A DNA stretch of 64,000 bases, taken from contig JAJDBP010000006.1 of NCBI GenBank assembly GCA_029261295.1, forward strand, positions 1-64,000. Reading direction: 5' to 3'. A program made the position numbers and the translations under genes. Below the pieces are notes generated by a model. That model worked only from the letters and a program-made list of their open reading frames with translations, had not been told where the DNA came from and searched no databases. Shown here in pieces: positions 6,975 to 51,724 of the stretch. This DNA comes from Nitrospirales bacterium. Lineage in GTDB: Bacteria > Nitrospirota > Nitrospiria > Nitrospirales > UBA8639. Each line of letters starts with the position of its first letter. Position 1 is the first letter of the stretch.

Positions 6975-6975
6975 C

Positions 6976-21155: not shown

Positions 21156-21158
21156 TTG

Positions 21159-33500: not shown

Positions 33501-34327
33501 ATTTACTCTTTGTGACGACGCGCAATGCCAGTACGACGGCGAATAAGGTGTATGCCTTGAATCCTACTTCCGCGCCCGCATCCCCTAGCTGGCTGTTTAC
33601 GGGTGGAGGGGCGACGTCGATGGATATGATTAATGCGGCTCCGGTAGTGGATTACGACAACAATCGCATTTATGTCACGAGCAGTTCCAATGGGAATACC
33701 CAGCGGAGCCTGTGGGCGTTTAACAGTACCAATGGCACCCTGCTGAGTACGGGGACGACGTATGGAGGGACGACGGTGGGGGATATCACGGTGTCGCCGG
33801 CGTTGAGTGATGATGCGGGGACGGTGTATGTCGGGACAGCAGGCGGGAGTGTACGAGCCTACAATACGAGTGATGGGTCGCTGAAGTGGACGTTAGCCAC
33901 ATCAAGTGCAGTGGTCTCGACCCTGTGGTTGGATTCGGCCTCCGATGATCTGTTCTTCAGTACCGCCAATGGGACGGTGTGGCGTGTTAGCGACGATGGG
34001 GGCTCGGCTTCGGATGTGTGGGGGGGCAGCAAGCCGGTCTTCACCTCGGCGACGCTGCCGTTGGTGTTGGGGGGGACGGACAAGGTCTTTGTGGGCGGTT
34101 GTACGGGAGCCAGTTGTGCCAGTAGCAGTGAAGGGCGGGTATATCAAGTGAATGCTACGACAGGGGCGCGGGAGCAATGCCGGATACTGGGGACGAATGT
34201 GACTCCAGGTGATCCGGCGTTTGATGTCGTGGATGGGCAACTTTTGGCGGGAGCGAGTAACGGCAAAGTGTATGCGTTTGCAGCGCCGGCCGGAATTTTA
34301 GGGAGTGATCCAGCATGTATTCCATAA
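30521..34327 (+). CDS. Large secreted modular beta-propeller protein, copy 1
   Basis: A 1268-residue protein. A polar N-terminus is followed by a hydrophobic signal segment (about residues 34-52) and a candidate cleavage site at VYADD near residue 67. Modules: a beta-sandwich with WQHTIGCERSRVLIVGV (about 80-285), a second module with TGDLLIATMTFDDGGDT (290-500), and a third resembling the first (WSHTIGGGDNRLLVVGAEIE, 510-735). A Thr-rich linker domain follows (740-870). The C-terminal PQQ-like propeller (890-1260) has blades such as GTVYVGTAGGSVRAYNTSDG. It ends in CIP. Probably a surface or matrix protein. GGGAG precedes ATG 30521. Overlaps the next gene by 13 bases. Confidence 0.78.
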   Translation: MKMLFSGIFWYWKNQDMDSRIWYKNSLFKRNPNLFFMVVFLWMCLGGIPSTNSVWIPLGYSDVYADDIMFDAASSPAASGVDTNTTLSWQHTIGCERSRVLIVGVEVEDTSAADSVVSSVTYNGVNMTRAVSVQQSSTGFIMDVEIWYLLEANLPDAGSYTITVTTTGPTRERYGGGISLYNVLQAAPEATSTQTTGSPPATFNTTITTLTNGAWVVDAIGSGNFNSAFTTSQMGQVERYDSGTTGGSSTGAGSTKPVATAGLTTMGWNQTGANRMAHVLAAFAPDPSPAATDTCPSTSTITFRAKQTASSANAASLIVTKPTGTATGDLLIATMTFDDGGDTLSAPVDWTLIEPASPGAEQMRTRSWYKIAQAGEPASYTFSSSGGNDNTIVHIAAFYDTRGVNVTGWTLEDSSYAYQDTTSTTITSLTVTGVTNGLLYTGFSNDDQEVVSSAPGGMTELDSQNVATVSLATYYEFRGAGAVTKTISWGGAADEYAAIAAVFSWSATSTGEGVGSNQGTTISWSHTIGGGDNRLLVVGAEIEDGIAANAVVSGVTYNGVAMLPAVSVAATNGFSNNVSLWYMLEASLPVAGTYTVTVTTTGTTDNRIGGSVDFADMKQAAPEATNTQTTTTGPYDPFNTTITTLTDGAIVVDAIGSGSNAPAGFTTNQTGQVERYDSDSAGVGSTGAGSSKAVATAGSTTMGWDVTFTNNRLAHVVAAFAPADTPTPATDLTVTSFNSASDVHWDNPGGDLTNVLILAKTADCTFTLNPLGTEAINTTVGNGVVLFNNDPTANLGSTAVTVGGATTVSYTASTGRLMHSSLTNSTTYCYKLYIRNGGILDDKSGSGRPEVEATATNGVSPNPRWSLNLESTNGATLVPPGLDPGSQVFTSFGSGTMVAVGAADGILDWRTLPASGSIQDQSPVLPISGGANCGVAGATNCLIATSQDGFVYSLNAATGVTTWSYRHAVADMLQGAVGAQLKDYTNVGFTPLTDLLFVTTRNASTTANKVYALNPTSAPASPSWLFTGGGATSMDMINAAPVVDYDNNRIYVTSSSNGNTQRSLWAFNSTNGTLLSTGTTYGGTTVGDITVSPALSDDAGTVYVGTAGGSVRAYNTSDGSLKWTLATSSAVVSTLWLDSASDDLFFSTANGTVWRVSDDGGSASDVWGGSKPVFTSATLPLVLGGTDKVFVGGCTGASCASSSEGRVYQVNATTGAREQCRILGTNVTPGDPAFDVVDGQLLAGASNGKVYAFAAPAGILGSDPACIP

Positions 34328-35190
34328 CACGGTATGACAATCAATCTCTCATAGGGGCGCTTGGGGTGCTACTGGTGCTCCCGCTCTCTTTTCTGTTCGT
34401 CGATGGTGTCGAAGGGCAAAACACGAGCACCAGGTATGATCCGGCTACTAGGAATGATCCTGCTATCCAATTTCAGTCTGCTCCAGGCCGTGCCGAGAAC
34501 AGGCCGTCGAAGATTCGAAAGGGTACGACCAGAAGGGTTCAGGCCAAAGAGCCAAACAAGAGCCCCAGATATGATCCCATTCTCCGGCATGACCCCGCTA
34601 TCCAATTTCAGTCTGCTCCAGGCCGTGCCAAGAACAAGACGTCGAAGATTCGGAAGGGTACGACCAGAAGACGAAGTACGATCATTGGTGGAGGGGTACC
34701 TCCCCGGGGTGACCAGTCGTCCTCTAGTCCTGTCGCGACGTTGATCTTTACGAATACCCTCATGGAAGGGAGTGTTTCAGGAAACCTAGTGTCGCATTCT
34801 GCTCGGCGCAATTATTACGGGGACGAGGAGTTTTCCCTTGCTGAGACTCGAGATTTGTCGATCGTGACCTGCTGGAAGAAATTGCAAGGGGATCATCTAC
34901 AAACCATGCATATCTATGGTCCGGATGGCCATTTGTTTCAGAAACGAGTGGTGCCTTTTTCAACGGAGTCCCAAAGGAGGACTCGACGTCGGAAGATGCG
35001 AGGTATTGAGAATGCCGTGGATGTTCGACATGCGCGCCCAAGGAAGGGTCGGCAGGAAGTGACGGTTAACTTCCCCATTACGGGGACTTGGGTGAGTCAG
35101 CATCAAATGGTTGGCACCTGGCGTGTAGAGGTGTACCACAATGAAGCCAAAACCCCGAGTGCCACTGGCAGTTTTACATTGACGGAGTAA
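34315..35190 (+). CDS. Small secreted partner protein, copy 1
   Basis: A 291-residue protein not assigned to a known family. An N-terminal signal (IGALGVLLVLPLSFLFVDGV) is followed by a basic, low-complexity region with two copies of a 104-base direct repeat (RYDP, DPAIQFQSAPGRA, SKIRKGTTRR). The C-terminal beta-rich domain contains ATLIFTNTLMEGSVSGNL and GTWVSQHQMVGTWRVEVYHN. It starts inside the end of the propeller gene, so translation is probably coupled. The C-terminal domain is conserved with the copy at 39318, while the basic repeat region is not. It may bind or anchor the propeller protein. The function is unknown. Confidence 0.7.
   Translation: MYSITRYDNQSLIGALGVLLVLPLSFLFVDGVEGQNTSTRYDPATRNDPAIQFQSAPGRAENRPSKIRKGTTRRVQAKEPNKSPRYDPILRHDPAIQFQSAPGRAKNKTSKIRKGTTRRRSTIIGGGVPPRGDQSSSSPVATLIFTNTLMEGSVSGNLVSHSARRNYYGDEEFSLAETRDLSIVTCWKKLQGDHLQTMHIYGPDGHLFQKRVVPFSTESQRRTRRRKMRGIENAVDVRHARPRKGRQEVTVNFPITGTWVSQHQMVGTWRVEVYHNEAKTPSATGSFTLTE
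34432..34535 (+). repeat. 104-base direct repeat, copy 1
   Basis: First copy of an in-frame direct repeat within the small partner gene. The second copy begins 135 bases downstream. A 33-base core (34462-34494) is identical in both. It duplicates the DPAIQFQSAPGRA and SKIRKGTTRR peptide segments. Confidence 0.85.
34567..34670 (+). repeat. 104-base direct repeat, copy 2
   Basis: Second copy of the repeat at 34432-34535, at a period of 135 bases (a multiple of three), so the reading frame is kept. The paralogous gene at 39318 lacks this duplication and has only short DPA-type repeats in the same place. Confidence 0.85.
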
Positions 35191-35535
35191 CCGCCTTTTT
35201 CGCACAGAAGGTCTTGGTCCACGATAATTCCTTAGCGTTGCTGAGATTTTCAGCAACTGTTTTGTCCTCTCTCCCTAGTTTTTCCCACCCTGGTTTTAAG
35301 TTCCCTTTGTGGAACTACTGCCTATCTCGTCAAAAATTTGACTAGTTGAAAGCCTCTCTCACCATTCCAATATTTATTTTCCCTTTAATTTCCAGAACAT
35401 TCAGTTTGCGCTCCCACTGGCCTGACAATTGCCTAAATTTAAAAACGGGCAGATAGGAGAATTTTATCCTGAGAAAGCAATGGTAAGAAATTTTCGACAA
35501 ATAACAAAAAATTATTTTCCCCTCGAAGAGAAAAA
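35191..35535. other. Intergenic region between duplicated units
   Basis: No gene is seen. The region contains AGTTCC-ctttgt-GGAACT at 35299-35316 and GTCAAA-AA-TTTGAC at 35329-35342, two short dyads. A sigma-54-like TGGCCTGACAATTGC at 35418 is listed separately. It is not obviously similar to the leader of the first unit, so the two units may be controlled differently. Confidence 0.5.
35418..35432 (+). promoter_or_regulatory. Sigma-54-like promoter candidate
   Basis: TGGCCTGACAATTGC has the GG and GC dinucleotides at the -24/-12 spacing of sigma-54 promoters and matches TGGC-N7-TTGC. The fifth and sixth bases differ from the usual TGGCACG. It lies 104 bases before ATG 35536. No enhancer-binding regulator gene lies in this window, so the call rests on the match alone. 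Confidence 0.35.
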
Positions 35536-38500
35536 ATGAGAATGTCTTTTACGGAAAATTCTTGGAATTGGGTAAATCAATCTGAGATCTCCCTGATATG
35601 CCTGAAGTCAGATTTATTCACAAGAGGGCAAATGCTTCTTTTTGTCATGGTTTTTCTCTGGATATGTTTAGGCGGAATTTCGGTTAAGAATCTCGCTGGG
35701 CTTTCTTGGGGAGTGTCTGAGGTTCGTGCGGAAGATATTACCTTTGACGCCGTTAGCACGCAGACCGCTGAGGTATATGAAGATTTCACACTCAGTTGGC
35801 AACATACGATTGGGTGCGAACGCAGTCGTATGCTGGTAGTTGGTGTGGCAGTTGAGGATGGCAATCTCGCCGACGTGACGGTCGACACCGTGACCTATAA
35901 CGGGGTAGCGCTGACGAAGGCCACTTCAGCGGTCACTGTCACCACTTGGGAGATGAATGTCGAAATCTGGTACATGCTCGAGGCCGATTTGCCGGATGCT
36001 GGAACCTATACGGTGGAAGTGACCACTGATGGTCAAACTTACAACAAAACTGGTGGGGCTATTTCTCTTTACAATGTTCTGCAAACCGCACCGGAAGCAA
36101 CGAATACACAGATTTCTAATGTGGGGCAGACAACGTTTAATACCAGCATTACTACTGTGACAGATGGTGCGTGGGTAATCGATGTAATTGGAAGTGGGGC
36201 TCCCAGTACCACATTTACGACAAACCAAACCGGGCAGGTGGAGCAGTACGATTCAGGAACTGAACCCGATAACAGTACCGGAGCAGGGAGTACCAAACAT
36301 GTGGCAACGGCGGGTTCGACAACCATGGGGTGGAACATCACGGGTTCCAATCGACTGGCGCATGCGCTGGCAGCGTTTGCACCGGATCCTAGTCCGGCGG
36401 ATACCGACACGTGCCCTGCGACCTCCACGATCACATTTCGCAATAATTCAAGCCTGACAAACACCGCTGATAATAACGTTGATGTTTCCATGCCGACGGG
36501 TACTGTCGAAGGGGACTTGCTGATCGCCACGATGGCATATGCGGATGGAGCTGACACCTTGAGCGCGCCCATTGATTGGACCCTGATCGAGCCGGCCGCT
36601 CCGGGTGCTGAATCGATGCGAACCCGGTCTTGGTACAAGGTGGCGCAAGCTATAGAAACTGGTCCCTATACCTTTACTTCTTCGGGTGGTGCTGATGAAG
36701 TCATCGTGCAGATTTCCTCATACTATGACACGCAAGGGGTGAATGTGAGTGGATGGACTCTGGAGGATTCGTCCTACGTCTATCAAGGGACCACCCACAC
36801 GAATATCACGACTGGGAGTGTCACGGGTGTGGCAAGCAATGTGCTCCTCTATTCCGCCTTTGCCAATGATGATGATGAGGCGGTCCAGTCCGCTCCGGGG
36901 GGCATGACGACATTGGATGAACAGGAATTGGTTGGGACCAATCTGGCGTTGGCCTCCTACTACGAGTTCCGTGGGGCTGGTGCTACGACCAAAACTATTG
37001 GTTGGGCAGGAGGGCAGGAACAGCTCTCGGCCATTGCCGCGGCCTTTAGTTGGTCGTCGTCCACTACCGGTGAAGGGGGGAGTTCAACACCTGGGACCAC
37101 ACTGATATGGCCTCATACGATCGGGAGCGGCGACAATCGCCTATTGGTGGTCGGGGTAGAGAACGAGGATGGAACGGCTGCTGATGCGGTCACGAGTGGT
37201 GTCACCTACAATGGGGTAGCCATGACGCAGGCTGTCTCAGTTGCGGCGACCAACGCGACTTCCAATCATGTCTCGCTCTGGTATTTGCTGGAAGCCTCGT
37301 TACCTGTGGCGGGGACGTACAACGTAGTTGTGACGACTACCGGGATTACCGACAACCGCATTGGAGGGTCCGTCGATTTTGCAGATATGAAACAAGCAGC
37401 TGCGGAGGCAACCAATACGCAAGCCTCCACGTCACCAACATCCCCGTTTAATACAAACATTACGACTATAACGGATGGGGCCATTGTCGTGGATGCTATT
37501 GGTAGTGGGACAGTTAGTGCCGGGTTTTCAACGAATCAGACTGGGCAGATTGAGCGGTACAATTCAGGTAGCACCGGAGGAGGGAGTACGGGTGCAGGGA
37601 GTTCCAAAACCGTGGCCACAGCGGGTGTGACGACGATGGGCTGGGATGTGGTTAGTGCCTCTCGTTTGGCGCATGTTGTAGCGGCATTCGCTCCAGCAGA
37701 CACGCCCACACCGGCAACGGACCTGACTGTGACGTCATTTAATTCCGCCAGCGATGTACAGTGGGATGATCCAGCTGGTGATCTGACGGATGTGCTTATT
37801 CTTGCCAAAACAGCCGATTGCGCTTTCACACTCAATCCTCTGGGGACCGAGGCGATTAATACGACGGTGGGTAATGGTGTAGTGCTCTTTAATAATGATC
37901 CCACGTCCAATCTTGGCTCGACTGCAGTGACGGTAGGCGGAGCAACCACGGTGAGTTACACGGCTTCCACTGGTCGCCTCACGCATAGTGGGCTCTCGAA
38001 TAGCATGGCGTATTGTTACAAGGTGTTTATTCGGAATGGGGGTATTTTTGATGATAAGAGTGGAACAGGGCGACCGGAGGTAAATGCGATAGCGACCAAT
38101 GGTGTGAGTCCGAATCCGCTCTGGAGTCTCAATCTTGAGTCTATTAATGGTGCGACATTGGTCCCACCGGGGCTTGATCCTGGAGCTCAAGTCTATACCT
38201 CGTTTGGCAGTGGCACGTTGGTGGGGGTGGGGGCAGCCGATGGCATTTTGGATTGGCGCACGATGCCGGCGTCCGGGAGTATTCAAGACCAGTCGCCGGT
38301 GCTCCCGATTTCTGGGGGCGGTAATTGTGGCGCGGTAGGGGCGACGAATTGTTTGATTGCGACCTCCCAAGATGGATTTGTCTACGCGCAGAATGCGGCA
38401 ACGGGGGTGGCGACCTGGAACTATCGTCATGCCGTGGGGGACATGCTGCAGGGCGCCGTGGGGGCGCAGCTCAAAGATTATACCAACGCTGGATTTACGC

Positions 38501-39330
38501 CTTCGACGGACTTACTTTTTGTCACAACGCGGAATGTCAGTGCGACGGCAAATAAAGTATATGCCTTAAATCCCACCTCAGCTCCAGCGTCGCCGACGTG
38601 GATTTTTACCGGGGGTGGAGCGACCGCGATGGACATGGTGAGTGCCGCGCCAGTGGTAGATTACGACAACAATCGGATTTATGTGACCAGTAGCTCTAAT
38701 GGGAATACCCAGCGGAGCCTGTGGGTGTTTAATAGTAGTAATGGCACGTTGTTGAGTACGGGGACGACGTACGGTGGGACGACTGTGGGCGATATTACCG
38801 TTTCCCCGGCCTTGAGTGATGATGCGGGGACCGTGTATGTCGGTACGGCGGGTGGGAGTTTACGGGCCTATAATACGAGTGATGGGTCGCTGAAGTGGAC
38901 GCTGGCCACTTCGAGTGCGGTGGTCTCGGCACTATGGTTGAATTCAAGTACCGATGACGTGTTCTTCAGTACGGCCAATGGCACCGTGTGGCGTGTGAGC
39001 GATGATGGCGGCTCGGCCTCGGATGTGTGGGGGGGGAGCAAACCGGTTTTCACTTCCGCGACGTTACCGGCTGTTATCGTCGACAAGGTCTATGTGGGTG
39101 GCTGCACGGGCGGAACTTGTGCCAGTAGCAGTGAAGGCCGGGTGTATCAGGTCAATGTCGCAACGGGAGCGAGAGAAGCCTGCCGGATTCTGGGCACGAA
39201 TGTGACCCCGGGCGATCCCACGTTTGATATTACTGATGCTCAGCTTTTGGTGGGGGCAAATAATGGGAAAATTTATTCATTTTCGGCTCCGGCCGGAATT
39301 TTAGGGAGTGATCCAGCATGTATTCCGTAA
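35536..39330 (+). CDS. Large secreted modular beta-propeller protein, copy 2
   Basis: A 1264-residue paralogue of the product at 30521 with the same order of modules. A polar N-terminus and hydrophobic signal (FVMVFLWICLGGISV) come first. Then come a WQHTIGCERSRMLVVGVAVE module, an EGDLLIATMAYADGADT module, a third module with WPHTIGSGDNRLLVVGVENE, and the PQQ-like propeller (GTVYVGTAGGSLRAYNTSDG). The C-terminal residues GILGSDPACIP are identical to copy 1, including the near-terminal Cys. Divergence is higher in the N-terminal modules than in the propeller. It overlaps its partner gene by 13 bases, exactly as in copy 1. Surface or matrix role inferred. Confidence 0.78.
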   Translation: MRMSFTENSWNWVNQSEISLICLKSDLFTRGQMLLFVMVFLWICLGGISVKNLAGLSWGVSEVRAEDITFDAVSTQTAEVYEDFTLSWQHTIGCERSRMLVVGVAVEDGNLADVTVDTVTYNGVALTKATSAVTVTTWEMNVEIWYMLEADLPDAGTYTVEVTTDGQTYNKTGGAISLYNVLQTAPEATNTQISNVGQTTFNTSITTVTDGAWVIDVIGSGAPSTTFTTNQTGQVEQYDSGTEPDNSTGAGSTKHVATAGSTTMGWNITGSNRLAHALAAFAPDPSPADTDTCPATSTITFRNNSSLTNTADNNVDVSMPTGTVEGDLLIATMAYADGADTLSAPIDWTLIEPAAPGAESMRTRSWYKVAQAIETGPYTFTSSGGADEVIVQISSYYDTQGVNVSGWTLEDSSYVYQGTTHTNITTGSVTGVASNVLLYSAFANDDDEAVQSAPGGMTTLDEQELVGTNLALASYYEFRGAGATTKTIGWAGGQEQLSAIAAAFSWSSSTTGEGGSSTPGTTLIWPHTIGSGDNRLLVVGVENEDGTAADAVTSGVTYNGVAMTQAVSVAATNATSNHVSLWYLLEASLPVAGTYNVVVTTTGITDNRIGGSVDFADMKQAAAEATNTQASTSPTSPFNTNITTITDGAIVVDAIGSGTVSAGFSTNQTGQIERYNSGSTGGGSTGAGSSKTVATAGVTTMGWDVVSASRLAHVVAAFAPADTPTPATDLTVTSFNSASDVQWDDPAGDLTDVLILAKTADCAFTLNPLGTEAINTTVGNGVVLFNNDPTSNLGSTAVTVGGATTVSYTASTGRLTHSGLSNSMAYCYKVFIRNGGIFDDKSGTGRPEVNAIATNGVSPNPLWSLNLESINGATLVPPGLDPGAQVYTSFGSGTLVGVGAADGILDWRTMPASGSIQDQSPVLPISGGGNCGAVGATNCLIATSQDGFVYAQNAATGVATWNYRHAVGDMLQGAVGAQLKDYTNAGFTPSTDLLFVTTRNVSATANKVYALNPTSAPASPTWIFTGGGATAMDMVSAAPVVDYDNNRIYVTSSSNGNTQRSLWVFNSSNGTLLSTGTTYGGTTVGDITVSPALSDDAGTVYVGTAGGSLRAYNTSDGSLKWTLATSSAVVSALWLNSSTDDVFFSTANGTVWRVSDDGGSASDVWGGSKPVFTSATLPAVIVDKVYVGGCTGGTCASSSEGRVYQVNVATGAREACRILGTNVTPGDPTFDITDAQLLVGANNGKIYSFSAPAGILGSDPACIP

Positions 39331-40049
39331 CACGGCTTAACAACCAATCTCTCAGGGGGGCGCTTGGGGTGCTGATGGTGCTCTCACTTTCATTTTTGTT
39401 AACCCATGAGGTTGAAGGGCGAAACAAGAGTTTCAGTTTTGATCCTGCAATCAGAAATGACCCCGCTACCAGCTATGATCCAGCCACAGGAGTGAATCGA
39501 GAGAGAAAGTATAAGACTAAAGGACGAAACTCAGTCCGTGGTGACGCTCTAGCACCGCATCGATCAAAGAAAATTTCTCGTCCCATTGCGACGTTGATAT
39601 TCATGAACACTCTCAGCGAAGGGATTGTGACAGGTGATATAGAGCAGCATCCTGGTCAGCAGAATTATTTTGGCGACGAAGAATTTTCAATGGGTGAGAC
39701 TCGAGACATGTATATCATTACTTGCTGGAAAGAACTGAAACTACGAGGGGATCATTTGCAAACGGTGCATCTCTATAGTCCTGACGGCCATCTGTTTCAG
39801 CGACAGGTGGTACCCTTTACTACGGCAACTCAGGTGGATTCGAGGCGTCGAAAGATGCGCCGAATCGGGAATGCTGTGGATGTTCGTCAGGCCCGGATGA
39901 GGAAGGGCCAACAGGAGGTGACGGTGCATTTTCCAATTGCGGGTACATGGGTGAGTCAGCATCAAATGTTGGGCACTTGGCGTGTGGAGGTATATTACAA
40001 TAAAGCCAAAACGCCGAGTGGCCGTGGTAGCTTTACCATGACGGAGTAA
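39318..40049 (+). CDS. Small secreted partner protein, copy 2
   Basis: A 243-residue paralogue of the product at 34315. The signal region (LGVLMVLSLSFLLTHEVEG) and the C-terminal domain (ATLIFMNTLSEGIVTGDI; GTWVSQHQMLGTWRVEVYYN) are well conserved. The middle region is shorter and carries DPA repeats (FDPAIRNDPATSYDPATG) instead of the duplicated basic segment. It starts within the end of the propeller gene. No family recognised. The conserved C-terminal domain, rather than the linker, is likely the functional part. Confidence 0.7.
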   Translation: MYSVTRLNNQSLRGALGVLMVLSLSFLLTHEVEGRNKSFSFDPAIRNDPATSYDPATGVNRERKYKTKGRNSVRGDALAPHRSKKISRPIATLIFMNTLSEGIVTGDIEQHPGQQNYFGDEEFSMGETRDMYIITCWKELKLRGDHLQTVHLYSPDGHLFQRQVVPFTTATQVDSRRRKMRRIGNAVDVRQARMRKGQQEVTVHFPIAGTWVSQHQMLGTWRVEVYYNKAKTPSGRGSFTMTE

Positions 40050-40140: not shown

Positions 40141-40305
40141 ATGGTCAAGAATTCAGATGAGATGCAGAAAACGAAAAAATCCCTTTTGCCGTATGTCAGG
40201 CCACAAATCCTGTGGGAGGAACCCTTTGAGCCGGTGACTTCCGCTATTAGTTGTGGAAAACGGCCTGGTCAGGGTGCTGCCTGTATGGGCGCTCCAATGT
40301 TTTAA
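40141..40305 (+). CDS. 54-residue Cys peptide, candidate RiPP precursor
   Basis: A short gene with AAGGAG six bases before ATG 40141. The N-terminus is polar and Lys-rich (MVKNSDEMQKTKKSLLPY). Then comes VRPQILWEEPFEPVTSAI, and the C-terminus is SCGKRPGQGAACMGAPMF, with two Cys and many Gly/Ala. It ends nine bases before an HprK-like kinase gene, and a radical SAM/SPASM gene follows that. A leader-like N-terminus, a Gly/Cys core and an adjacent SPASM enzyme are the usual marks of a RiPP precursor. The modification and the mature product are unknown. No similar peptide could be searched. Confidence 0.72.
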   Translation: MVKNSDEMQKTKKSLLPYVRPQILWEEPFEPVTSAISCGKRPGQGAACMGAPMF

Positions 40306-40314
40306 CAACAAAAA

Positions 40315-41136
40315 ATGAACAAGATTACGGTTATTGAAATGGGCGGGCTCGCCTGTGCCATTACCACGAATGATGTGGAATTGTGGCACGTCATGGAGCA
40401 ACGCTATCAGGGATTCTCCTCCACAAAAGCTCCCAAATTTCATATCGAAGTCGAATGCGTCGATTCTTCTTTATCTGGTGATTCGCCGCTCGAAATTTTG
40501 AGCGGTCCTGTAACGAGTCACCTGAATGGACAATGCTTGCAGATCATGGGCGAGGGGTTTAGTGCCGGCTTTAATTTTGCGTCCGGAAGAGGACATATTT
40601 GCCAGCCATTGAACCTCACGCCGCTCGATCTGTTTTTGAAGGCCATCTATGGTTATTGGCTTTTTCAAGAAGAAGCATTTTTTGTTCATGCTTGTGCTAT
40701 CGAACGAGATGGAAAGGCCGCAGTCTTTTTTGGCCCCTCGGGGAGTGGGAAATCTACAATTGCGCGAATGGCAGAGGATACGGTTTTAGCTGATGAATTA
40801 GTGATCGTCAGGAAAGATCAACTCATGAATAGCGATGGGAGTCCAACCTTTTCCGTTCATGGTACCCCTTTTTGGGGTGGAGTAAATTCTCGAGTGCCCT
40901 TGTCGAAATTGTTTGCGCTCCACTTTAGTCGTGAGGAGGCTACATTGAATGCCATGCCCCCTGTGTCGGCGCTTCGGAAGCTGCTGTCATGCATTGGGTA
41001 TTTTTCGCCATCGCCTCAACAACAAACGCATCTGTTTGACCTGGCCGTTTCCCTTGTGCAGGGGTTGTCATGTCATGAGTTAACTTTTTCACCTCAGCCG
41101 CAGTTTTGGAGTTGGCTTGATGCACACAGCTATTGA
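40315..41136 (+). CDS. HprK-related kinase-like protein, copy 2
   Basis: A 273-residue protein. FFVHACAIERDGKAAVFFGP, with SGSGKST at residues 142-148, is an HprK-type P-loop preceded by the family's conserved His. VLADELVIVRKD is the following acidic motif. It is shorter than the copy at 22903 and only distantly similar to it. It lies between the 54-residue peptide and the radical SAM gene, and overlaps the latter by 17 bases. The gene order predicts that the peptide, or a part of it, is its substrate. No HPr protein is encoded here. Confidence 0.78.
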   Translation: MNKITVIEMGGLACAITTNDVELWHVMEQRYQGFSSTKAPKFHIEVECVDSSLSGDSPLEILSGPVTSHLNGQCLQIMGEGFSAGFNFASGRGHICQPLNLTPLDLFLKAIYGYWLFQEEAFFVHACAIERDGKAAVFFGPSGSGKSTIARMAEDTVLADELVIVRKDQLMNSDGSPTFSVHGTPFWGGVNSRVPLSKLFALHFSREEATLNAMPPVSALRKLLSCIGYFSPSPQQQTHLFDLAVSLVQGLSCHELTFSPQPQFWSWLDAHSY

Positions 41137-42334
41137 ACCGTTTAACAATGATAAGCCATCCAAGGCTTCGCATTACGACCGGTATATACAAGAGGCAGAA
41201 CGTCATTTTGTTCCTTTGAACGTGATGCTTGAACTGACACATCGGTGTCACCTCAATTGTGTCCATTGTTATTTAGAGGATAATCACGAATGGAGAGCCA
41301 AGGCTCAGGAATTAACTGCCGAGGAATTCTGTCAGGTCATTGATCAATTGGTTGATGCCGGGTGTCTTTTTCTGACCTTAAGCGGTGGAGAAATTTTTCT
41401 GCGTGACGATACGTTGGTGATAGCTCGTTATGCTCGAAGCAAAGGATTGGCCTTGCGACTCTATACTAGTGGAACCTTGATGACACCAACCCTCGTTGAG
41501 GAGATTACTCAGCTGCATCCTCTTTCTGTTGAGTTTTCGATTTATTCCGCCGATAACCCTGATCTTCACGATTCGATCATTCAGATTCCTGGTTCACATC
41601 AAAAGACCCTTGAGGCAATCCGTATTTTGTCTCGTACAGACATTCCAGTCGTCATCAAAACTCCGCTCATGCGTGAGGTCTTCAGTGAATACCCAAAAAT
41701 CTTGGAATTGGCAAAGGAGCTTGGGGTGTTTTATAAATTAGACCCAACGGTTAGCCCCAAAAACGATGGGGATCTCTCTCCTTGCCATCTTCGTTTGACG
41801 CAAGACCAACTCCTTGCCATGTATGCTGACCCGAACCTTCCATCGGCACCGGAGATTCAGGCACTTTCTGAAGGAAAGATCCCTCATAAGTCAGAAGATG
41901 AGGTGTGCGATCTTGGAAAAACAGCATGTGCCATCTCTCCTTTGGGTGATGTGTATCCGACTCTGGGCTTTCCTTGGTCTGCTGGCAATGTACGGGAAAC
42001 GTTATTTCGGGAGATTTGGGAGAATTCCCCGTTGTTCAAACGCTTAAGAGAAGTTCAAGTCAAGGATCTATCCGACTGTTCGGGTTGTGAAAAGTTTTCC
42101 TATTGCGATCGCTGCTGCATGTGGGCCCTGATGGATGAAGGAGATTTTTTCGGAGGGTCGTTATGGGCGTGTGAAATAGCCTCGGCCAAAGAGAAGGCGG
42201 CAGGACTTCCTTCCGACCCAACTCCTTTTCAGCTAAAGAGTCGGGATGACAACAGTATTCAGCGCACTCAGTTTACGACAAAGGATCACCTTGTGATGCC
42301 TCAAAAATTACCTGTGAAACGTGTAGCTAGCTAA
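41120..42334 (+). CDS. Radical SAM/SPASM peptide-modifying enzyme
   Basis: A 404-residue enzyme. The radical SAM cluster motif is HRCHLNCVHCY, with Cys43, Cys47 and Cys50 (CxxxCxxC). The barrel includes LTLSGGEIFLRDD and VEFSIYSADNPDLHD. The C-terminal SPASM-like region has CAISPLGDVYPTLGF and the cluster CSGCEKFSYCDRCCMWA, then ACEIA; the Cys often found in 'VYPC' is Thr here. SPASM enzymes typically install thioether, carbon-carbon or epimer changes in ribosomal peptides. ATG 41120 is preferred over the adjacent TTG 41117. It overlaps the kinase gene. Confidence 0.88.
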   Translation: MHTAIEPFNNDKPSKASHYDRYIQEAERHFVPLNVMLELTHRCHLNCVHCYLEDNHEWRAKAQELTAEEFCQVIDQLVDAGCLFLTLSGGEIFLRDDTLVIARYARSKGLALRLYTSGTLMTPTLVEEITQLHPLSVEFSIYSADNPDLHDSIIQIPGSHQKTLEAIRILSRTDIPVVIKTPLMREVFSEYPKILELAKELGVFYKLDPTVSPKNDGDLSPCHLRLTQDQLLAMYADPNLPSAPEIQALSEGKIPHKSEDEVCDLGKTACAISPLGDVYPTLGFPWSAGNVRETLFREIWENSPLFKRLREVQVKDLSDCSGCEKFSYCDRCCMWALMDEGDFFGGSLWACEIASAKEKAAGLPSDPTPFQLKSRDDNSIQRTQFTTKDHLVMPQKLPVKRVAS

Positions 42335-42399: not shown

Positions 42400-43257
42400 C
42401 TAATGTAACAAAAGACTTCCCTCATCTTTGGCTCGTCTGAGTGCCCAATTCCAACTACACAATCCCAAAGGCACGAGCACTAGGCAAAAAGCCCCTAAAA
42501 CAAACAATTCAAGAGTGAGCTGGGTAATAGGTGTTCCTTGGTAGATGGCGAGTTGGAGCCCACGGATTGCGTAGGTGATGGGATTCCAGGCAGCAATGGT
42601 CTGGAGCCAAGCCGGCAAAACGGTCACAGGGAAAAACACCCCTCCAAGCAAGGCTCCTAACCCGTTTATGGCCCAAGCTACAGCTAGGCCGCGTTTGAAA
42701 ACCAGTAGCCATGCGGCTTCAATGAGGCCAATGCTGTTAAATGCGATGATGGCTAACCCCAAGATGCTCCCTAGGCTGAGCCAGTTGATGTGACTAAAAT
42801 CGACCCCAAACCCAATCCCCCCTAAGATAAAAAACCCTAGAACTTCAGCGGACGCATATATGGTGTTCCACGCGACGATGGCGAGCATGAGGACCCAGAG
42901 CTTAGTTGGTGACCCAAACAATACTTCCAATGTTCCTAATGATTGTTCCGATTCGATACGGCCGGACAACCCCCCAAGTGCTAACCCGACGTAGGCGAAG
43001 AAGGCATTTCCTACGAGAACATAGGGAAAATAGGAGGTGGCAAAGGGTGCGAGGTCAGATGTCATTTGATTACCAAATAAACGATCAATAAAGAAATAGG
43101 TGGCGATAGTGGTAAAAATCCCCAAGAGGGAAAACATCATCGCGAATTTATAACTCATTTCGATAAGAAATTCTTTCTTGATGTAGGCCAAAACTTTTTG
43201 AAATTCTCCTAGAGGAGAGAGGAAGGGGAGAGATGCTTGATAGTCGAATGTTCTCAT
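42400..43257 (-). CDS. ABC-2 type exporter permease
   Basis: A 285-residue membrane protein with about six helices. The pattern QSLGTLEVLFGSPTKLWVLM, followed by the hydrophobic core GLGALLGGVFFPVTVLPAWL, is typical of ABC-2 permeases of the drug/polysaccharide exporter family. Its start overlaps the ATPase stop as ATGA, so the two make one transporter. The gene pair is convergent with the radical SAM gene, with a 65-base space between. An exporter for a modified peptide or for a lipid-linked glycan are both possible. There is no peptidase C39 domain in either component. Confidence 0.85.
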   Translation of the reverse strand: MRTFDYQASLPFLSPLGEFQKVLAYIKKEFLIEMSYKFAMMFSLLGIFTTIATYFFIDRLFGNQMTSDLAPFATSYFPYVLVGNAFFAYVGLALGGLSGRIESEQSLGTLEVLFGSPTKLWVLMLAIVAWNTIYASAEVLGFFILGGIGFGVDFSHINWLSLGSILGLAIIAFNSIGLIEAAWLLVFKRGLAVAWAINGLGALLGGVFFPVTVLPAWLQTIAAWNPITYAIRGLQLAIYQGTPITQLTLELFVLGAFCLVLVPLGLCSWNWALRRAKDEGSLLLH

Positions 43258-44081
43258 GCAGCCTCAGAATTTGCGGTCAGTTGTTTGAAAACTCTTGCCA
43301 GCGAATCTGAGTGACGTTTATTCAGTTTTTGTAAGGTATCCACGGTATGGTAATCGGTAAGCTGTCCCTTATGAAGAATGGCAATATGATCACAGAGTTC
43401 TTCAACTTCCTGAAGGTTATGACTCGTGAGGATGACGGTGCAGCCCATTTCCCCAACGATGTTGTTTCGAACCAGACAGCGCACATCCTCTGCTGTGGAG
43501 GGGTCAAGGCTTCGGGTTGGTTCATCTAACAACAGAATTTGTGGTTGTTGCAAAAGGGCTCGTGCTATCCCGAGTCGATGGCGCATACCAGTGGAGTAAG
43601 TTCCAAATGGGCGATCCAAGGCTTTCAATTGAAGTTGTTCCTGTAATTGTTGGATTCGGATTTTAGCAGCGGAAGGGTTCAGTCCTTGGAATGCCGCAAA
43701 AAACTCAAGATTTTGATTGCCTGTCAGACGCCAATAAAAACTGCGCTCTTCGCTTGTACTCAGTCCAATGAGTTTCTTGACCTTTTCTTGATCGTTCACT
43801 ACATCGTAGCCATGTACTAGCACACGACCTGAAGTCGGTAGGATTAGTGTAGACAGAATTTTCAAGAGCGTTGTCTTGCCTGCTCCGTTCGTTCCCAGCA
43901 AGCCGAGGATTTTCCCACGGTCTAGGTTTAGCTGGACGTCACGGAGTGCAAAAAGAGGTGTTGGACAGTTGAGGGAATTCCGTGACCATGGCCACGGTTT
44001 TGGTGATTGGAAGTATTTCGTGAGGCGATCAATAACAATGCTAGGGGGAGAATCTGATCCCCTGACTGAAGAAAAGCCCAT
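43254..44081 (-). CDS. ABC-2 type exporter ATPase
   Basis: A 275-residue ABC ATPase. Walker A is LLGTNGAGKTTLLKIL; the signature is the YSTGM variant in FGTYSTGMRHRLGIARALL; Walker B is ILLLDEPTRSLDP; the switch His lies in LTSHNLQEV. The YSTGM-type signature is common in ABC-2 exporters of the NatA/DrrA/CcmA branch. It precedes the permease gene in the same direction. A 621-base gap separates it from the divergent methyltransferase gene. Confidence 0.9.
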   Translation of the reverse strand: MGFSSVRGSDSPPSIVIDRLTKYFQSPKPWPWSRNSLNCPTPLFALRDVQLNLDRGKILGLLGTNGAGKTTLLKILSTLILPTSGRVLVHGYDVVNDQEKVKKLIGLSTSEERSFYWRLTGNQNLEFFAAFQGLNPSAAKIRIQQLQEQLQLKALDRPFGTYSTGMRHRLGIARALLQQPQILLLDEPTRSLDPSTAEDVRCLVRNNIVGEMGCTVILTSHNLQEVEELCDHIAILHKGQLTDYHTVDTLQKLNKRHSDSLARVFKQLTANSEAA

Positions 44082-44702
44082 TTTCGGATTATCCTTTTGA
44101 TATGGTCCAGTGAATAGGCAAATGCAAAGTTTTTGCCATTCAGGACTATCTCAAGGAAATTTTAGGAAAATATTACCGTTTTTAATGCGAGGAGAAGTCC
44201 AAGGGTTACGCCAATTGAAACTGTCAGCATCCGTTCCGCAGTTTTTGCACTCATGTATCAAAAGCCTTTCTAAAGTGGGGGTATTGAATCATTCATGATT
44301 CAACTCAAATTTTTATTCATCCTTATCTTCAGTTGCACCAAATTTCTTGTTGCCGACCATCTGTATGCTTATCGACAGGTCATTTACGAAACTCAATAGT
44401 TCATGAGAAAAAAAGTGAAAAAAGAAGAATGATTTACCTCCGTTGGCTTTCTCTTTTTTACCTGAATGAATTTATTGTGGTTGAGAATTTCCCTGACTAG
44501 GTAAAATTTTCCCGTTGAGGTCACGAGGGAGCCATTTGAAGGAACCTCAGAGCTGTGGACAGTGAGCAAAGCCAGCCTTCATCAAGCTAGGAGTAAGAAA
44601 CCTTCGGGGGGCAGGCTATATGGCCTATCGGTATAGAAATTGCTCCCTATAGTACCCGCTATGATTTTTCTGACACTATACGTTTGTCCCAATCATTGAT
44701 TT
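44082..44702. other. Long divergent intergenic region, possible structured RNA
   Basis: No gene is firmly supported. A 34-residue frame at 44295-44399 looks signal-peptide-like but lacks a ribosome-binding site. The part from about 44510 to 44665 is GC-richer than its surroundings and has several short complementary segments: GAGGT with ACCTC, GCTGTGG with CCAGC, and a CTATA-TATAG pair. It lies directly upstream of the + strand methyltransferase and asnB genes, so it could be a structured leader. It does not match a riboswitch class that I can confirm. Confidence 0.35.
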
Positions 44703-45623
44703 GTGATTGCTCAAGCAACCATTTTGGAGGACGAGTCTGCCGCGGACGACGTTTCCTGTCCTTGCGGTAGTCTTCTTCCTGCTAGAATTTCCTTCCAGTC
44801 TGGGACGCGCCAATATCTTTGTTGTCAACATTGTGCCTTGGTTTTCCACAGTCCAAGGCCTCGTGCATTAGAGATTACGCAAGAATATCAGCGAGGCTAT
44901 GATGAAATATTTCACAAACCTGCTGCTGATCTTTCTCGACAACCTGTCTTCCAAAGTGTTCTTGATCATCTTTCCTCCTATGCGAATCCTCCTGGGTCTC
45001 TTCTAGATATCGGGTGTGGAACGGGGGAATTTGCATTACTGTGTCGGGAAACAGGATGGACCTCTTATGGAATCGAATTGTCTGAGCAGGCGAATGAGAC
45101 AGCTGCTCGACAAGGAATTAGGATGCTCCCTTGCCATATGTTATTGGAATCTGACATTTCTATCCAACACAATCAGCAGTTCGATGTGATTGCCTTGATC
45201 AATGTATTGGATCATGTATGTGATCCGATTGGACTCCTTCGGCGGGTCCGCTACATGTTGAAGCCTAGTGGTGTCGTGATAATACGAGTGCCAAATGCCA
45301 CTTTTCATCTCACAGTTAGACGCTTTCTTCATCTGTTCAAAGCTCAAGGTCAACAAGCGTTTCATTTGTATGTCTTTTCTCCTTCGACCTTAATTGAAAT
45401 CTTAAAAAAGGTCGGGTTGATTTCTGTTTCAGTACAGAATTCAAAAACAGGTTGTACTCCAAGCTATGCTTTGGTGAAGAACGCAGGGCAACATTTTTGG
45501 CGAGTCATATGGCGAATCGGGGGATTGGCACTTTGGTCTTTAGCTCAAGGTATCTTTTGCCTGACTAACAAGCAAGTCGTGTGGGCACCCTCATTTGAGC
45601 TTGTCGCAACGAGCGAAGAGTGA
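44703..45623 (+). CDS. SAM-dependent methyltransferase with N-terminal Cys motif
   Basis: A 306-residue protein. Residues 18-55 hold a zinc-ribbon-like pattern (SCPCGSLLPAR, then YLCCQHCALVFHSPRP), often seen before methyltransferase domains in sugar pathways. Motif I is LLDIGCGTGEFALLC near residue 100. INVLDHVCDPIGLL and LKPSGVVIIRVPNA follow as later core motifs. A C-terminal hydrophobic segment (IGGLALWSLAQGIFCLT) is present. GTG 44703 is the predicted start. The arrangement resembles the TylF/NovP-independent 'methyltransferase 13/14' group. The substrate is probably a nucleotide-sugar or lipid-linked sugar. Confidence 0.8.
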   Translation: MIAQATILEDESAADDVSCPCGSLLPARISFQSGTRQYLCCQHCALVFHSPRPRALEITQEYQRGYDEIFHKPAADLSRQPVFQSVLDHLSSYANPPGSLLDIGCGTGEFALLCRETGWTSYGIELSEQANETAARQGIRMLPCHMLLESDISIQHNQQFDVIALINVLDHVCDPIGLLRRVRYMLKPSGVVIIRVPNATFHLTVRRFLHLFKAQGQQAFHLYVFSPSTLIEILKKVGLISVSVQNSKTGCTPSYALVKNAGQHFWRVIWRIGGLALWSLAQGIFCLTNKQVVWAPSFELVATSEE

Positions 45624-45659
45624 TCTACCGAAGACGAGCAAAAGGAAACAAAAATTTTC

Positions 45660-47585
45660 ATGTGTGGAATTTGTGGGTTTTCCGGTTGGCGTTCTGAAGA
45701 AACATTAGACCTGATGATGCAGCGCCTTACGCATCGAGGGCCTGACGATAATGGGACGCATATTGAGCCAGGGGTCTCGCTTGGTGCGACTCGATTAGAG
45801 GTGATCGATCCCGTTGGGGGTCATCAGCCCATTGGCAATGAGACCGGGAACGTCTGGGCGGTACTCAACGGAGAAATTTATAACTATCGCGAACTTAGAG
45901 AAGAGCTTCAAGGAAAAGGTCATCGATTCTCGACTCATTGTGATACGGAAGTATTGGTTCATCTCTATGAACAGTATGGGGACGAGTTTGTTCGCCGACT
46001 TCGAGGGATGTATGCCTTTGCACTATGGGATCGTGATCGCCAAACGCTGTTCATCGTTCGGGATCGATTTGGCATAAAGCCACTCTATTATTTCGTGGAA
46101 GGTGAAGATGTCGTCTTTGCCTCAGAGCTTCCCGCGCTTATGTCGGTGCATGGCTCGGACGCCATTCGACCACAGGCTATCGCTCAATATTTCCAATTTT
46201 TATATGTACCGGGACCTGAGACCATCTTTGAAGGTATTCAGCAATTAGGTCCTGGTGAAATGCTAACGGTCACGAATCGGAAGATCGAAACCCGAAAATA
46301 TTGGTCTATTCAAGAAGAACGACAAGACCTCTCCTCTTACTCACAAAGCGATTGGGAAGAATTGTTCGTTGAATCTCTCAAAGAAAGTGTTCAGTCACAG
46401 CTGGTCAGTGATGTCCCTCTTGGCCTTTTTCTATCAGGAGGACTGGACTCAGCGTCTATTCTTGCGATGATGCGATCCGTCAACAATGGGACGATTCGCA
46501 CCTTCTCTATTGGTTATGAAGAGGCTGCTGATGGCTCTTTTAATGAGCTTGATGCCGCACGTAACCTGGCGGAATATTTTGGTTCTGATCATACCGAAGA
46601 AAGATTGACTCCTGATGTCGTGAAGGTCCTTCCTCAAGTTGTGGCGGCAATGGGTGAACCGTTTGCAGATTCTTCTTCTATCCCGACGTATTTGGTGTCT
46701 GAGGTGGCGCGTCGCTCCGTGACCGTGGCTCTTTCTGGTATCGGAGGAGATGAATTGTTTGGTGGTTATCCTCGATATCTGGGGATGAGATTAAGCACGC
46801 ATTATCAACATGTTCCATTTGCAGTCAGACGCTGGTTAGCCCTTCATGCCGCTCCACGGCTCCCCGAGTTTGGTGTGGCACGTGATCGAGTCGGACGTGC
46901 GAAACGGTTTTTGCAGGGAGGGTCTTTATCAATTGAGGAACAATATCTTCAATGGATGACGTTTATCCCACTCGAGTGGGGTCATGCTGCTTTCACTGAA
47001 TCATTTCTTGATCAAGTGAATTTTCGGGAAACACCTGATCGATATCAGAGGATGTTTAACGAATGGCCTTCTGTCGATCCGGCTGAGAGCGCGATGGGCT
47101 TAGATCTTCAAACATACCTAGCTGATGACCTTTTGCGGATGGGAGATCGGCTGAGTATGGCTTATTCCTTAGAGCTGCGTGTCCCTTTTTGTGATCACCG
47201 ATTGTTAGCGATGGCACTCAATGTTCCCTCTTCGGTACGTTTTTCTGGAGGGAAACTGAAATCTCTCATGCGAAAGTCTCTCGCCAAAATATTGCCCCCG
47301 AACATATTGGATCGTCCTAAGCAAGGCTTTATGGTTCCGTTAGCTCGGTGGTTGCGTGAAGACCTAAGGGAGATGGTGAATGACCTTCTCTCTGAGTCCC
47401 AGATTCGCCGTCGTGGATATGTTAAGCCGGAATATGTGCAATGGCTTTTGCGGGAACATCATTCGGGTTCCCGGAATTTTTCTGATCAAATCTATGCATT
47501 GTTGGTGCTGGAACTCTGGCACACAACCTTTGATGAACGGTGTGGTTCTATGCGTTCTTGTGTAGGGCAAGGCATGAATCGTTAA
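45660..47585 (+). CDS. asnB: Asparagine synthase-like glutamine amidotransferase (AsnB type), copy 2
   Basis: A 641-residue paralogue of the product at 4306. CGICGFSGW places Cys at residue 2. LTHRGPDDNG and NGEIYNYRELREEL are class II amidotransferase motifs. LFLSGGLDSASILAMM is the ATP-binding loop near residue 258. Both halves look active. It lies 37 bases after the methyltransferase gene and 12 bases before a GT4 gene, in a clear polysaccharide operon. Two intact copies in one locus suggest two amidated residues or two separate polymers. The role in glycan amidation is inferred. Confidence 0.87.
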   Translation: MCGICGFSGWRSEETLDLMMQRLTHRGPDDNGTHIEPGVSLGATRLEVIDPVGGHQPIGNETGNVWAVLNGEIYNYRELREELQGKGHRFSTHCDTEVLVHLYEQYGDEFVRRLRGMYAFALWDRDRQTLFIVRDRFGIKPLYYFVEGEDVVFASELPALMSVHGSDAIRPQAIAQYFQFLYVPGPETIFEGIQQLGPGEMLTVTNRKIETRKYWSIQEERQDLSSYSQSDWEELFVESLKESVQSQLVSDVPLGLFLSGGLDSASILAMMRSVNNGTIRTFSIGYEEAADGSFNELDAARNLAEYFGSDHTEERLTPDVVKVLPQVVAAMGEPFADSSSIPTYLVSEVARRSVTVALSGIGGDELFGGYPRYLGMRLSTHYQHVPFAVRRWLALHAAPRLPEFGVARDRVGRAKRFLQGGSLSIEEQYLQWMTFIPLEWGHAAFTESFLDQVNFRETPDRYQRMFNEWPSVDPAESAMGLDLQTYLADDLLRMGDRLSMAYSLELRVPFCDHRLLAMALNVPSSVRFSGGKLKSLMRKSLAKILPPNILDRPKQGFMVPLARWLREDLREMVNDLLSESQIRRRGYVKPEYVQWLLREHHSGSRNFSDQIYALLVLELWHTTFDERCGSMRSCVGQGMNR

Positions 47586-47596
47586 TCGGAGAATTT

Positions 47597-48817
47597 ATGA
47601 ATGTATTGATGCTAGCAGAGGTTTCGAGTGAGTTCGTCATCGGTGGGGCTGAACGCGTTCTGCGCGAACAACTTGTTGGGCTGTTTAAGAGAGGGCATGG
47701 TATTCAGGCCGTCGTGAGATCACCACAAGAAGATCTGCCTTCACAGATTGTTGTGGATGGGATCTCTGAAAGCCGGTATCACCCGATACGAGGGAATGCT
47801 GTGGCATTTGTTCTGTCTTCCATTGTGCGATCAATTCGGGCCTTTGATAGGGGGCGTGCGGGAAGGATTCCAGATGCTGTTCTCATTCATCAGGCACTCG
47901 CAGGGCTAGGTCCAATCCTTTTGCGTAAAAGGTGCACCTCAAATTGGGTGTATGTTTGTCTTTCATTGGCTCATGAAGAATATGTGACTCGCCACGTCCT
48001 CCATCAAGGCTATCTTGCGAGAGGCCTGTACTTCCTTCATTCACATTTGAGGCGTTTGGTGGAACGGCTTGTGATCCGTCGTTGTCACACCATTGTCGTA
48101 TTAAGCGAGTTTATGAAGGACCGAGTTCTCACTTTCCATAATGTGCCAGAAGAACGTATCCAAGTCATTCCGGCTGGGGTCGACCACGAACGCTTCCACC
48201 CTTCTAATGATCGATTAGAAGTGCGGTCAACTTTGGGGCTGCCTTTGGACAAAACCATTCTGTTTACTGTCAGGAATCTTGTCCCAAGAATGGGGTTAGA
48301 AACGCTACTGCATGCCATCGCTGAGGTAAAGGGAAGCGTCAAAGATTTTTTGGTACTCATCGGAGGCCAAGGGCCTCTAGGCCCTATTCTTGAAGAATTG
48401 ATCGTGAAGCTAGATTTAACGGATGTCGTTCGATTAGTAGGATTTATTCCCGAAGACAATCTGCCTCAGTATTTCCAGGCTGCTGATCTTGTCCTCATGC
48501 CCACTCATGAATTGGAAGGATTTGGCCTGGTGACCGTGGAGGCCCTGGCTTGTGGCACTCCTGTCTTGGGAACGCCTGTTGGGGCCATTCCTGAAGTTCT
48601 TTCTCTATTAGATTCAAGTCTTATTGCCAATGACCGCAATAGTCCTGCCCTTGCGGAAGGGATGAAACGCCTCATTCGGCGTATCCGGGAGCACCCGGAT
48701 AGTTGGGCAACCTTATCTCGCCATGCTCGAACAGTAGTTGAGCAACACTTTACCTGGGTGAATCATAACGCCCAGCTGGAAACGGTTCTTCGAGAAGTCG
48801 TTCCAATGAGAGCGTGA
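47597..48817 (+). CDS. Glycosyltransferase family 4
   Basis: A 406-residue GT-B enzyme. N-terminal MNVLMLAEVSSEFVIGGAER carries the glycine-rich acceptor loop GGAER. The donor domain has FTVRNLVPRMGLETLLHAI and MPTHELEGFGLVTVEALACG, with the EX7E glutamates. ATG 47597 has CGGAGA upstream and lies 12 bases after the asnB stop; an earlier in-frame codon lies inside asnB. It belongs to the same operon as the next GT4 gene. Confidence 0.85.
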   Translation: MNVLMLAEVSSEFVIGGAERVLREQLVGLFKRGHGIQAVVRSPQEDLPSQIVVDGISESRYHPIRGNAVAFVLSSIVRSIRAFDRGRAGRIPDAVLIHQALAGLGPILLRKRCTSNWVYVCLSLAHEEYVTRHVLHQGYLARGLYFLHSHLRRLVERLVIRRCHTIVVLSEFMKDRVLTFHNVPEERIQVIPAGVDHERFHPSNDRLEVRSTLGLPLDKTILFTVRNLVPRMGLETLLHAIAEVKGSVKDFLVLIGGQGPLGPILEELIVKLDLTDVVRLVGFIPEDNLPQYFQAADLVLMPTHELEGFGLVTVEALACGTPVLGTPVGAIPEVLSLLDSSLIANDRNSPALAEGMKRLIRRIREHPDSWATLSRHARTVVEQHFTWVNHNAQLETVLREVVPMRA

Positions 48818-48826
48818 GCCAATTTG

Positions 48827-50041
48827 ATGCCTCTAAAAGTTATCCATCTCATTACGAGGCTAGATTGGGGAGGGTCAGCTCGTAATACTATGTTGACCGT
48901 TCTGGGACATGATCGTTCCCGTTTTCTTCCCTTTGTGGTGGCAGGACATATTGGGGAGTGGACCGCTCAAGGGGGGACGCAAGCCACCGAGGCCAATTGC
49001 CAAACTTTGGATGCAGCGGGAGTGCCATGGAAATGTCTTTTCTCATTAACGCGAGAAATTAATCCTGTAAAGGATATCTCAGCTCTTTGGGGTCTGATTC
49101 AGCTCTTTCGACAAGAACGCCCGACTATCGTTCATACCCATACCTCAAAAGCTGGTATCTTAGGTCGTCTTGCGGCGTGGGTGGTCGGTGTGCCAATCAT
49201 CATTCATACACCGCACGGTCATGTATTTTACGGACATTTTGGGATTGTCCTTTCAAGAGTGTTTCAAATGCTTGAATGGGTATGTGCGAAGGGAACGAGT
49301 AAAATTATTACCCTGACCGAGTTGGAAGCACAAGATCACCTTCAGCGGCATATCGGGAAAGAAGGCCAATTTAAGGCTGTTTTTAGCGGAATTAATGTGG
49401 CGCAATATCGAGCGGCATCAGCGACAAGGCTGAAAAGCCGTTTTGGTTTGGGTTGTTCGGATGACGATATTATTGTGGGATCAGTAGGGTGGCTTACTCA
49501 TATAAAAGGCCACCGGTATTTGATTGAAGCCATGGCGAAATTGAAGCCCCACTATCCTAAGCTGCAATGCCATATTATTGGAAGTGGTCCACTTGAAGAA
49601 GAGTTGATGATGCTAGCTGCGGATTTAGAGGTCGCCTCCTCTATTCAATTTCTCGGATTTACAGATGATGTTCCCTCATGTTTATCGGCCATGGATCTCT
49701 TTGTCCTTCCTTCGCTAAATGAAGGAATGGGACGGGCTCTAATCGAAGCCATGGCGGCAGGTTTACCTGTTGTGGCTACGAATGTTGGAGGAGTTCCTGC
49801 CATTGTCCAAGATAAACATACAGGATTTCTTGTGCCGCCTGGAAATGCCGATGCGATTGCAAAATCTCTTGAACAGTATCTACAGGACCCAGAGTTGGCG
49901 AAGACTATAGGTGCCGCGGGGAGAGAGTACATTAGCGGGAAATTTGATGTGTCATCACTGATTCAAGGGGTAGAGTCGGTATATGAAGAGGCATTGCTTG
50001 AACGCGACAAAATGATCGCCGTAAAAGAAGTGCCTATTTAA
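48827..50041 (+). CDS. Glycosyltransferase family 4
   Basis: A 404-residue GT-B enzyme. It opens MPLKVIHLITRLDWGGSARN, with the GGxxRN loop. IVHTHTSKAGILGRLAAW is a motif common in GT4 enzymes using UDP-sugars (the 'HTHTSKAG' segment). The donor domain has VGWLTHIKGHRYLIEAM and LPSLNEGMGRALIEAMAAGL. ATG 48827 follows a TTG at 48824 and lies nine bases after the previous stop. The HTHTSKAG motif and lack of signal peptide fit cytoplasmic addition to an undecaprenyl-linked sugar. Confidence 0.86.
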   Translation: MPLKVIHLITRLDWGGSARNTMLTVLGHDRSRFLPFVVAGHIGEWTAQGGTQATEANCQTLDAAGVPWKCLFSLTREINPVKDISALWGLIQLFRQERPTIVHTHTSKAGILGRLAAWVVGVPIIIHTPHGHVFYGHFGIVLSRVFQMLEWVCAKGTSKIITLTELEAQDHLQRHIGKEGQFKAVFSGINVAQYRAASATRLKSRFGLGCSDDDIIVGSVGWLTHIKGHRYLIEAMAKLKPHYPKLQCHIIGSGPLEEELMMLAADLEVASSIQFLGFTDDVPSCLSAMDLFVLPSLNEGMGRALIEAMAAGLPVVATNVGGVPAIVQDKHTGFLVPPGNADAIAKSLEQYLQDPELAKTIGAAGREYISGKFDVSSLIQGVESVYEEALLERDKMIAVKEVPI

Positions 50042-51021: not shown

Positions 51022-51044
51022 TGGTCGCATAGGGGAGACTTACT

Positions 51045-51713: not shown

Positions 51714-51724
51714 ACTTTTCTAGA

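Follow-up and report, generated by a model that had tools for sequence, protein, structure and literature searches.

A candidate RiPP-type maturation cassette with an HprK-like kinase and a radical SAM/SPASM enzyme at a 54-codon gene of a Nitrospirales bacterium

To understand what a gene of only 54 codons does beside two putative modification enzymes, the surroundings of an open reading frame at 40141-40305 (+ strand) were analyzed in the window, by which we mean the whole stretch of 64,000 nucleotides at positions 1 to 64,000 of contig JAJDBP010000006.1 of a Nitrospirales bacterium. The first-pass annotation had described this frame as a Cys peptide gene followed by an HprK-like kinase and an overlapping radical SAM/SPASM enzyme, had placed the unit at 40141-42334 and had suggested that the peptide could receive both a thioether-type and a phospho-modification. 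This raises the questions whether the frame is a gene and which of these modifications its product could carry. The genes concerned are:

about 29144-29647 (alternative start ATG 29222), + strand: S24/S26 signal-peptidase-like protein with a Ser-His dyad (SMxP ... HR); NCBIfam sigpep_I_arch, Pfam Peptidase_S24
29614-29925, + strand: PqqD-type RiPP recognition element (Pfam PqqD); overlaps the 3' end of the peptidase gene
30521-34327, + strand: large protein with a C-terminal PQQ-like/BamB-like beta-propeller (Pfam PQQ_2), copy 1
34315-35190, + strand: 291-aa protein, copy 1 of the propeller-partner family, 63% identical to the product of 39318-40049
35536-39330, + strand: large beta-propeller protein, copy 2
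39318-40049, + strand: 243-aa protein, copy 2 of the propeller-partner family; 198-aa orthologue in genome G394
40141-40305, + strand: putative precursor peptide of 54 aa with PYxxPxI leader, WEEPFEPVTSAIS and core C38GKRPGQGAACMGAPMF; called from orthologue, codon pattern and family motif
40315-41136, + strand: HprK-like kinase with His125, Walker A Lys146, Asp160 and Glu161
41117-42334 (ATG 41120), + strand: radical SAM/SPASM protein, putative maturase (Pfam and NCBIfam)
42403-44084, - strand: ABC-2 permease (42403-43260) and ATPase (43257-44084), convergent; probable product exporter

The 54-codon frame is preceded by a good ribosome-binding site (AAGGAGATCATC before the ATG) and its product ends with SCGKRPGQGAACMGAPMF. 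The N-terminus is leader-like as had been described, although the term Lys-rich mildly overstates the 4 Lys found among its first 13 residues. An orthologue, MADEPEAEKKLQRPQPYTKPKIEWEEPFEPVTSAISCAKRPGQGVPSCTAAPRL, is encoded at the equivalent position in the Nitrospirae MAG JACQCE010000117.1 (genome G394, locus L062), which belongs to another family of the window's class. The two peptides are 55% identical, and 22 of the 29 identical residues are specified by different codons. Over residues 25-45, mismatches were counted at 0 of 21 first, 1 of 21 second and 15 of 21 third codon positions. Such a pattern argues for a selected protein and is strongest beside and inside the presumed core; judged by this comparison, the frame is a genuine gene under purifying selection and not a chance ORF. 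Conservation extends to the C-terminal block of the orthologue, where the second Cys is offset by one residue, and the expectation that a homologue would precede an HprK/SPASM pair agrees with this locus. It is the only strict orthologue of the peptide known. Neither peptide carries a C-terminal Ser or Thr, the window peptide ending in ...PMF and the orthologue in ...PRL. NCBIfam and Pfam hold no family for the window peptide, NCBIfam none for four related precursors, and a 10-bit match to NF005638 (DNA polymerase III delta') was discarded as noise. When used as a query against relatives, the peptide gave chance-level matches only (best E=0.003, with internal stops), because it diverges fast; the kinase is the better probe.

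Gene content, gene order, conservation and motifs can be read directly from the two loci. In the window the order is signal-peptidase-like gene, PqqD gene, two successive pairs of a beta-propeller gene and its 243-aa-type partner (a tandem duplication, 30521-40049), peptide, kinase and radical SAM/SPASM gene, the kinase gene starting 9 bp past the peptide stop and the radical SAM gene overlapping it. The MAG has the identical order with one propeller/243-aa pair, its propeller counterpart lying directly upstream of the 198-aa gene, which is followed by the peptide. In the window the unit covers ~13 kb. The first-pass annotation had called the three genes from 40141 to 42334 correctly, but drew the unit too narrowly and overlooked the PqqD and peptidase genes, which belong to it, as well as the phylum-wide family described below. 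An internal repeat around DPAIQFQSAPGRA was seen in the 291-aa first partner. A model of the 243-aa protein was mostly beta strand, at low confidence (pLDDT 51). Among 270 genomes of the class, the 243-aa family was found in just two, the window genome and G394, and the kinase had no match in 20 other genomes of the window's genus; the unit is therefore patchy, and given this patchiness it is either mobile or often lost. The cassette is surrounded by an exopolysaccharide-biosynthesis-like region (window 1-16522 and 44703-54003) with glycosyltransferase-like genes, methyltransferases and two AsnB-like amidotransferases.

To characterise the cassette, we screened 396 genomes of the phylum with the kinase, of which 50 gave a match. 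Forty regions around kinase matches, that of G394 included, were fetched by kinase similarity alone, some of them cut by contig ends. Of these 40 HprK-centred loci, 37 contain a PqqD gene, 38 an S26-type peptidase gene, 36 a radical SAM gene and 31 a filtered precursor. As precursors we accepted short same-strand ORFs near the kinase with Y-x-x-P-x-hydrophobic and a Cys 12-32 residues past the Tyr; after two outlier, unrelated-looking ORFs had been removed by hand, 37 peptides were left, the window peptide included. All 37 carry YxxPx[hydrophobic], the lasso-leader/PqqD motif, as the filter required. The distance from YxxP to the first core Cys was 18-20 in 37/37, where 12-32 had been permitted, and the residue before this Cys is Ala or Gly in 28/37. 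At the C-terminus Ser (30/37) or Thr (3/37) was found in 33 of the 37 peptides, compared with 14-16% Ser/Thr for other ORFs of the same loci; only four peptides depart from this rule, among them the window peptide and its orthologue. All of these survey counts overstate independent support, since the relatives are phylogenetically dependent. In nine Nitrospirales loci (L074, L076, L077, L079, L084, L090, L096, L097 and L100) there are three radical SAM genes together with an NTP_transf_5 gene; these loci encode as many as three precursors in tandem, all from a single sequence family (...ILSACSL...DSGPRxS). The radical SAM gene of L066 (2951-3878) and the PqqD gene of L064 (5837-6112) appear to be split across frames, by decay or assembly error. 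The cassette type thus recurs across the phylum and appears to be unnamed in the databases searched.

The window PqqD protein scored 55.6 bits against Pfam PqqD (cut-off 23.4) and is 44% identical to that of the G394 cassette. In lasso peptides YxxPxL is needed for recognition by the PqqD-like B1 protein (PMC10368454). The peptidase scored 53.6 bits against NCBIfam sigpep_I_arch (cut-off 51.85) and also matched Pfam Peptidase_S24; SMxP and HR were present in 40/40 peptidases of the related-locus set. This Ser-His dyad is of the kind known from archaeal and ER-type signal peptidases. In the radical SAM enzyme both domains exceeded their Pfam cut-offs (Radical_SAM 70.6 bits, SPASM 36.5 bits). 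Its CxxxCxxC motif reads CHLNCVHC and its SPASM cysteines are CSGCEKFSYCDRCC. In the window and in G394, Thr replaces the Cys of the SPASM G-x4-C motif; most relatives in which the motif can be recognised have Cys there. The enzyme is 62% identical to its G394 orthologue, the single locus returned when the radical SAM alignment was run against GTDB contigs. For the convergent ABC-2 pair adjacent to the unit, the guess that it is an exporter has gained ground: a homologous permease lies on the cassette contig in three of the five relatives searched (G128, G346 and G391; not found in G394 or G290), and the pair is plausibly the product exporter.

Subsequently, the kinase is considered, on which the proposed phospho-modification depends. 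It matched named HprK families weakly (HprK_rel_A 27.6 bits, cut-off 200) and has a PEPCK-like P-loop; a scan of GTDB contigs with it gave no match. Neither the AlphaFold model of the kinase (pLDDT 52) nor that of the 243-aa protein was good enough to use, and the kinase model's weak PEPCK match is no more than consistent with an HprK-type P-loop fold. HprK-like kinases of lasso clusters phosphorylate a C-terminal Ser (PMC9266682; PMC8498205), and PadeK-type kinases, which modify this Ser, require a His-Lys-Asp-Asp motif (PMC9266682). All 41 kinases have the first three residues of this motif (His, Lys and Asp) and either Asp or Glu as the fourth; in the window kinase these are His125, Lys146, Asp160 and Glu161, and Glu occupies the fourth position in half of the set. 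In a kinase tree the window and G394 sequences form a pair (support 100/99) next to the long-branched relatives G290 and G128. As the precursors of these two neighbours end in Ser or Thr, the loss of the C-terminal Ser is probably specific to the window/G394 pair. Phosphorylation of the window peptide as first suggested is thus not borne out, since the presumed C-terminal acceptor of most relatives is missing here and in the orthologue.

Taken together these results support the idea that the window peptide is made as a leader-plus-core precursor and is served by enzymes of its own: a conserved short gene stands beside modification enzymes, and a PqqD-type recognition element occurs together with its cognate leader motif PYxxPxI. 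What each enzyme does, in which order, where the leader is cut, what chemistry the product has and that it is exported are inferred from the protein families. The PqqD protein would bind the leader via PYxxPxI and present the precursor to the radical SAM/SPASM enzyme, which would modify the Cys-containing core, most plausibly by a thioether or C-C cross-link. The signal-peptidase-like protein would then cut the leader off before Cys38 (A-I-S|C), which leaves Cys as the first residue of the core, and the ABC-2 pair would export this core. The C-terminal Ser is probably phosphorylated by the kinase in most relatives. Because this Ser is lost in the window peptide, the kinase may there use a hydroxyl inside the peptide (T33, S34 or S37) or a different substrate. 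We regard this RiPP-type maturation of the 54-aa precursor, with all of its steps, as probable. Against it weigh the missing presumed phosphoacceptor in the window peptide and its orthologue, the Thr in the SPASM motif of both enzymes, the single strict orthologue, the phylogenetic dependence of the relatives and the removal of two ORFs by hand.

The state of the kinase bears on a different view, namely that it is a relic or regulator and that only the radical SAM/PqqD branch works, peptide phosphorylation having been lost in the subfamily. Both members lack the C-terminal Ser/Thr, and the His typical of kinase column 204 (29/41) is Phe or Pro in both. However, both genomes retain the gene, at 44% identity, with the catalytic His, Lys and Asp in place, and we consider this view unlikely, though to be taken seriously. 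The propeller genes suggest another product altogether, a cofactor or ligand that derives from the peptide and serves the exported propeller and 243-aa proteins, instead of a free secreted RiPP. The pair lies inside the cassette in both genomes, its 243-aa family is limited to these two among the 270 of the class, and the maturase falls in the PqqE/MftC/AhbD sequence range. Yet other cassettes of the HprK-centred family are without the pair, BamB-type propellers are common and imply no cofactor, and most related precursors resemble RiPP cores with several Cys, which makes such a cofactor improbable.

A lasso-peptide cluster of the ordinary kind, with HprK as its tailoring kinase, would likewise have a YxxPxI leader, a PqqD-like B1 protein and an HprK-like kinase, and an AsnB-like gene lies at 45660-47585. 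The AsnB-like protein reached 238.6 bits against a lasso-cyclase cut-off of 525 and fitted an XrtA-type amidotransferase better (561), and no B2-type transglutaminase-like leader peptidase (Transglut_core3, PF13471) was matched in the genome assembly. With this neighbour of the XrtA-associated type and B2 not found in the assembly, a lasso cluster was rejected as highly improbable.

The proposed RiPP-type cassette was compared with known systems. Like phosphorylated lasso clusters (paeninodin PadeK, pseudomycoidin PsmK/PsmN) it combines a YxxPx[LI] leader, a PqqD-like protein and an HprK-like kinase, most relatives have the C-terminal Ser, and some related loci encode an NTP_transf_5 nucleotidyltransferase; unlike them, the window has a radical SAM enzyme and an S26-type peptidase instead of B2 protease and lasso cyclase, and its peptide is without the C-terminal Ser. 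SynChlorMet (NCBIfam ScmC, ScmD, ScmE and ScmF) also joins HprK-like, PqqD-like and radical SAM/SPASM proteins in one cassette. The window proteins, however, stay far below its cut-offs (ScmC 22 of 125, ScmD 39 of 100, ScmE 76 of 400, ScmF 64 of 400 bits), there is one radical SAM enzyme where two are named for SynChlorMet, and the window adds S26 peptidase, propeller and exporter genes. SkfB, a sactipeptide-type maturase, and PqqE are radical SAM/SPASM proteins by sequence as well and the nearest solved structures, but the resemblance is modest (52.6 and 43.5 bits, mostly in the radical SAM core), and the window PqqD is a separate gene. A further cassette, of HprK_rel_A type, was seen in the window itself at 21156-24815, with an NTP_transf_5 protein, PqqD, a PRMT-like methyltransferase, an HprK_rel_A-like kinase (111 bits, cut-off 200) and a Tat-like short protein ending in PYVIPTIYTFTVPKNALACHMGVTHGMSTCG. 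It resembles the unit in its HprK-related kinase, its PqqD and a Y-x-x-P-x-I before ALAC in the short protein, and differs in having no radical SAM gene, a Tat-like N-terminus and a kinase distant from that at 40315. In the literature searched, no paper was found that combines radical SAM chemistry with HprK-type phosphorylation on one peptide, and nothing was returned for SynChlorMet or for HprK with SPASM; 'HPr kinase' co-occurred with 'radical SAM' once, the HPr kinase there being that of lasso clusters.

On present evidence, the cassette would work like a phospho-RiPP cassette while belonging to no named class. The best reading of the sequences is an uncharacterised phospho-RiPP-like cassette family, akin in kind to SynChlorMet and to phosphorylated lasso systems but short of each membership threshold that was applied, of which the window holds an unusual member. 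More tentatively, and at somewhat below an even chance, it may represent an unnamed Nitrospirota RiPP class with radical SAM cross-linked cores that start with Cys through a Ser-His signal-peptidase-like protease and are phosphorylated at a C-terminal Ser by an HprK-like kinase; the window subfamily would have lost this Ser, kept kinase and maturase, and gained two exported protein kinds. The window member would thereby be a natural exception, in which the role of the kinase can be asked without its usual acceptor.
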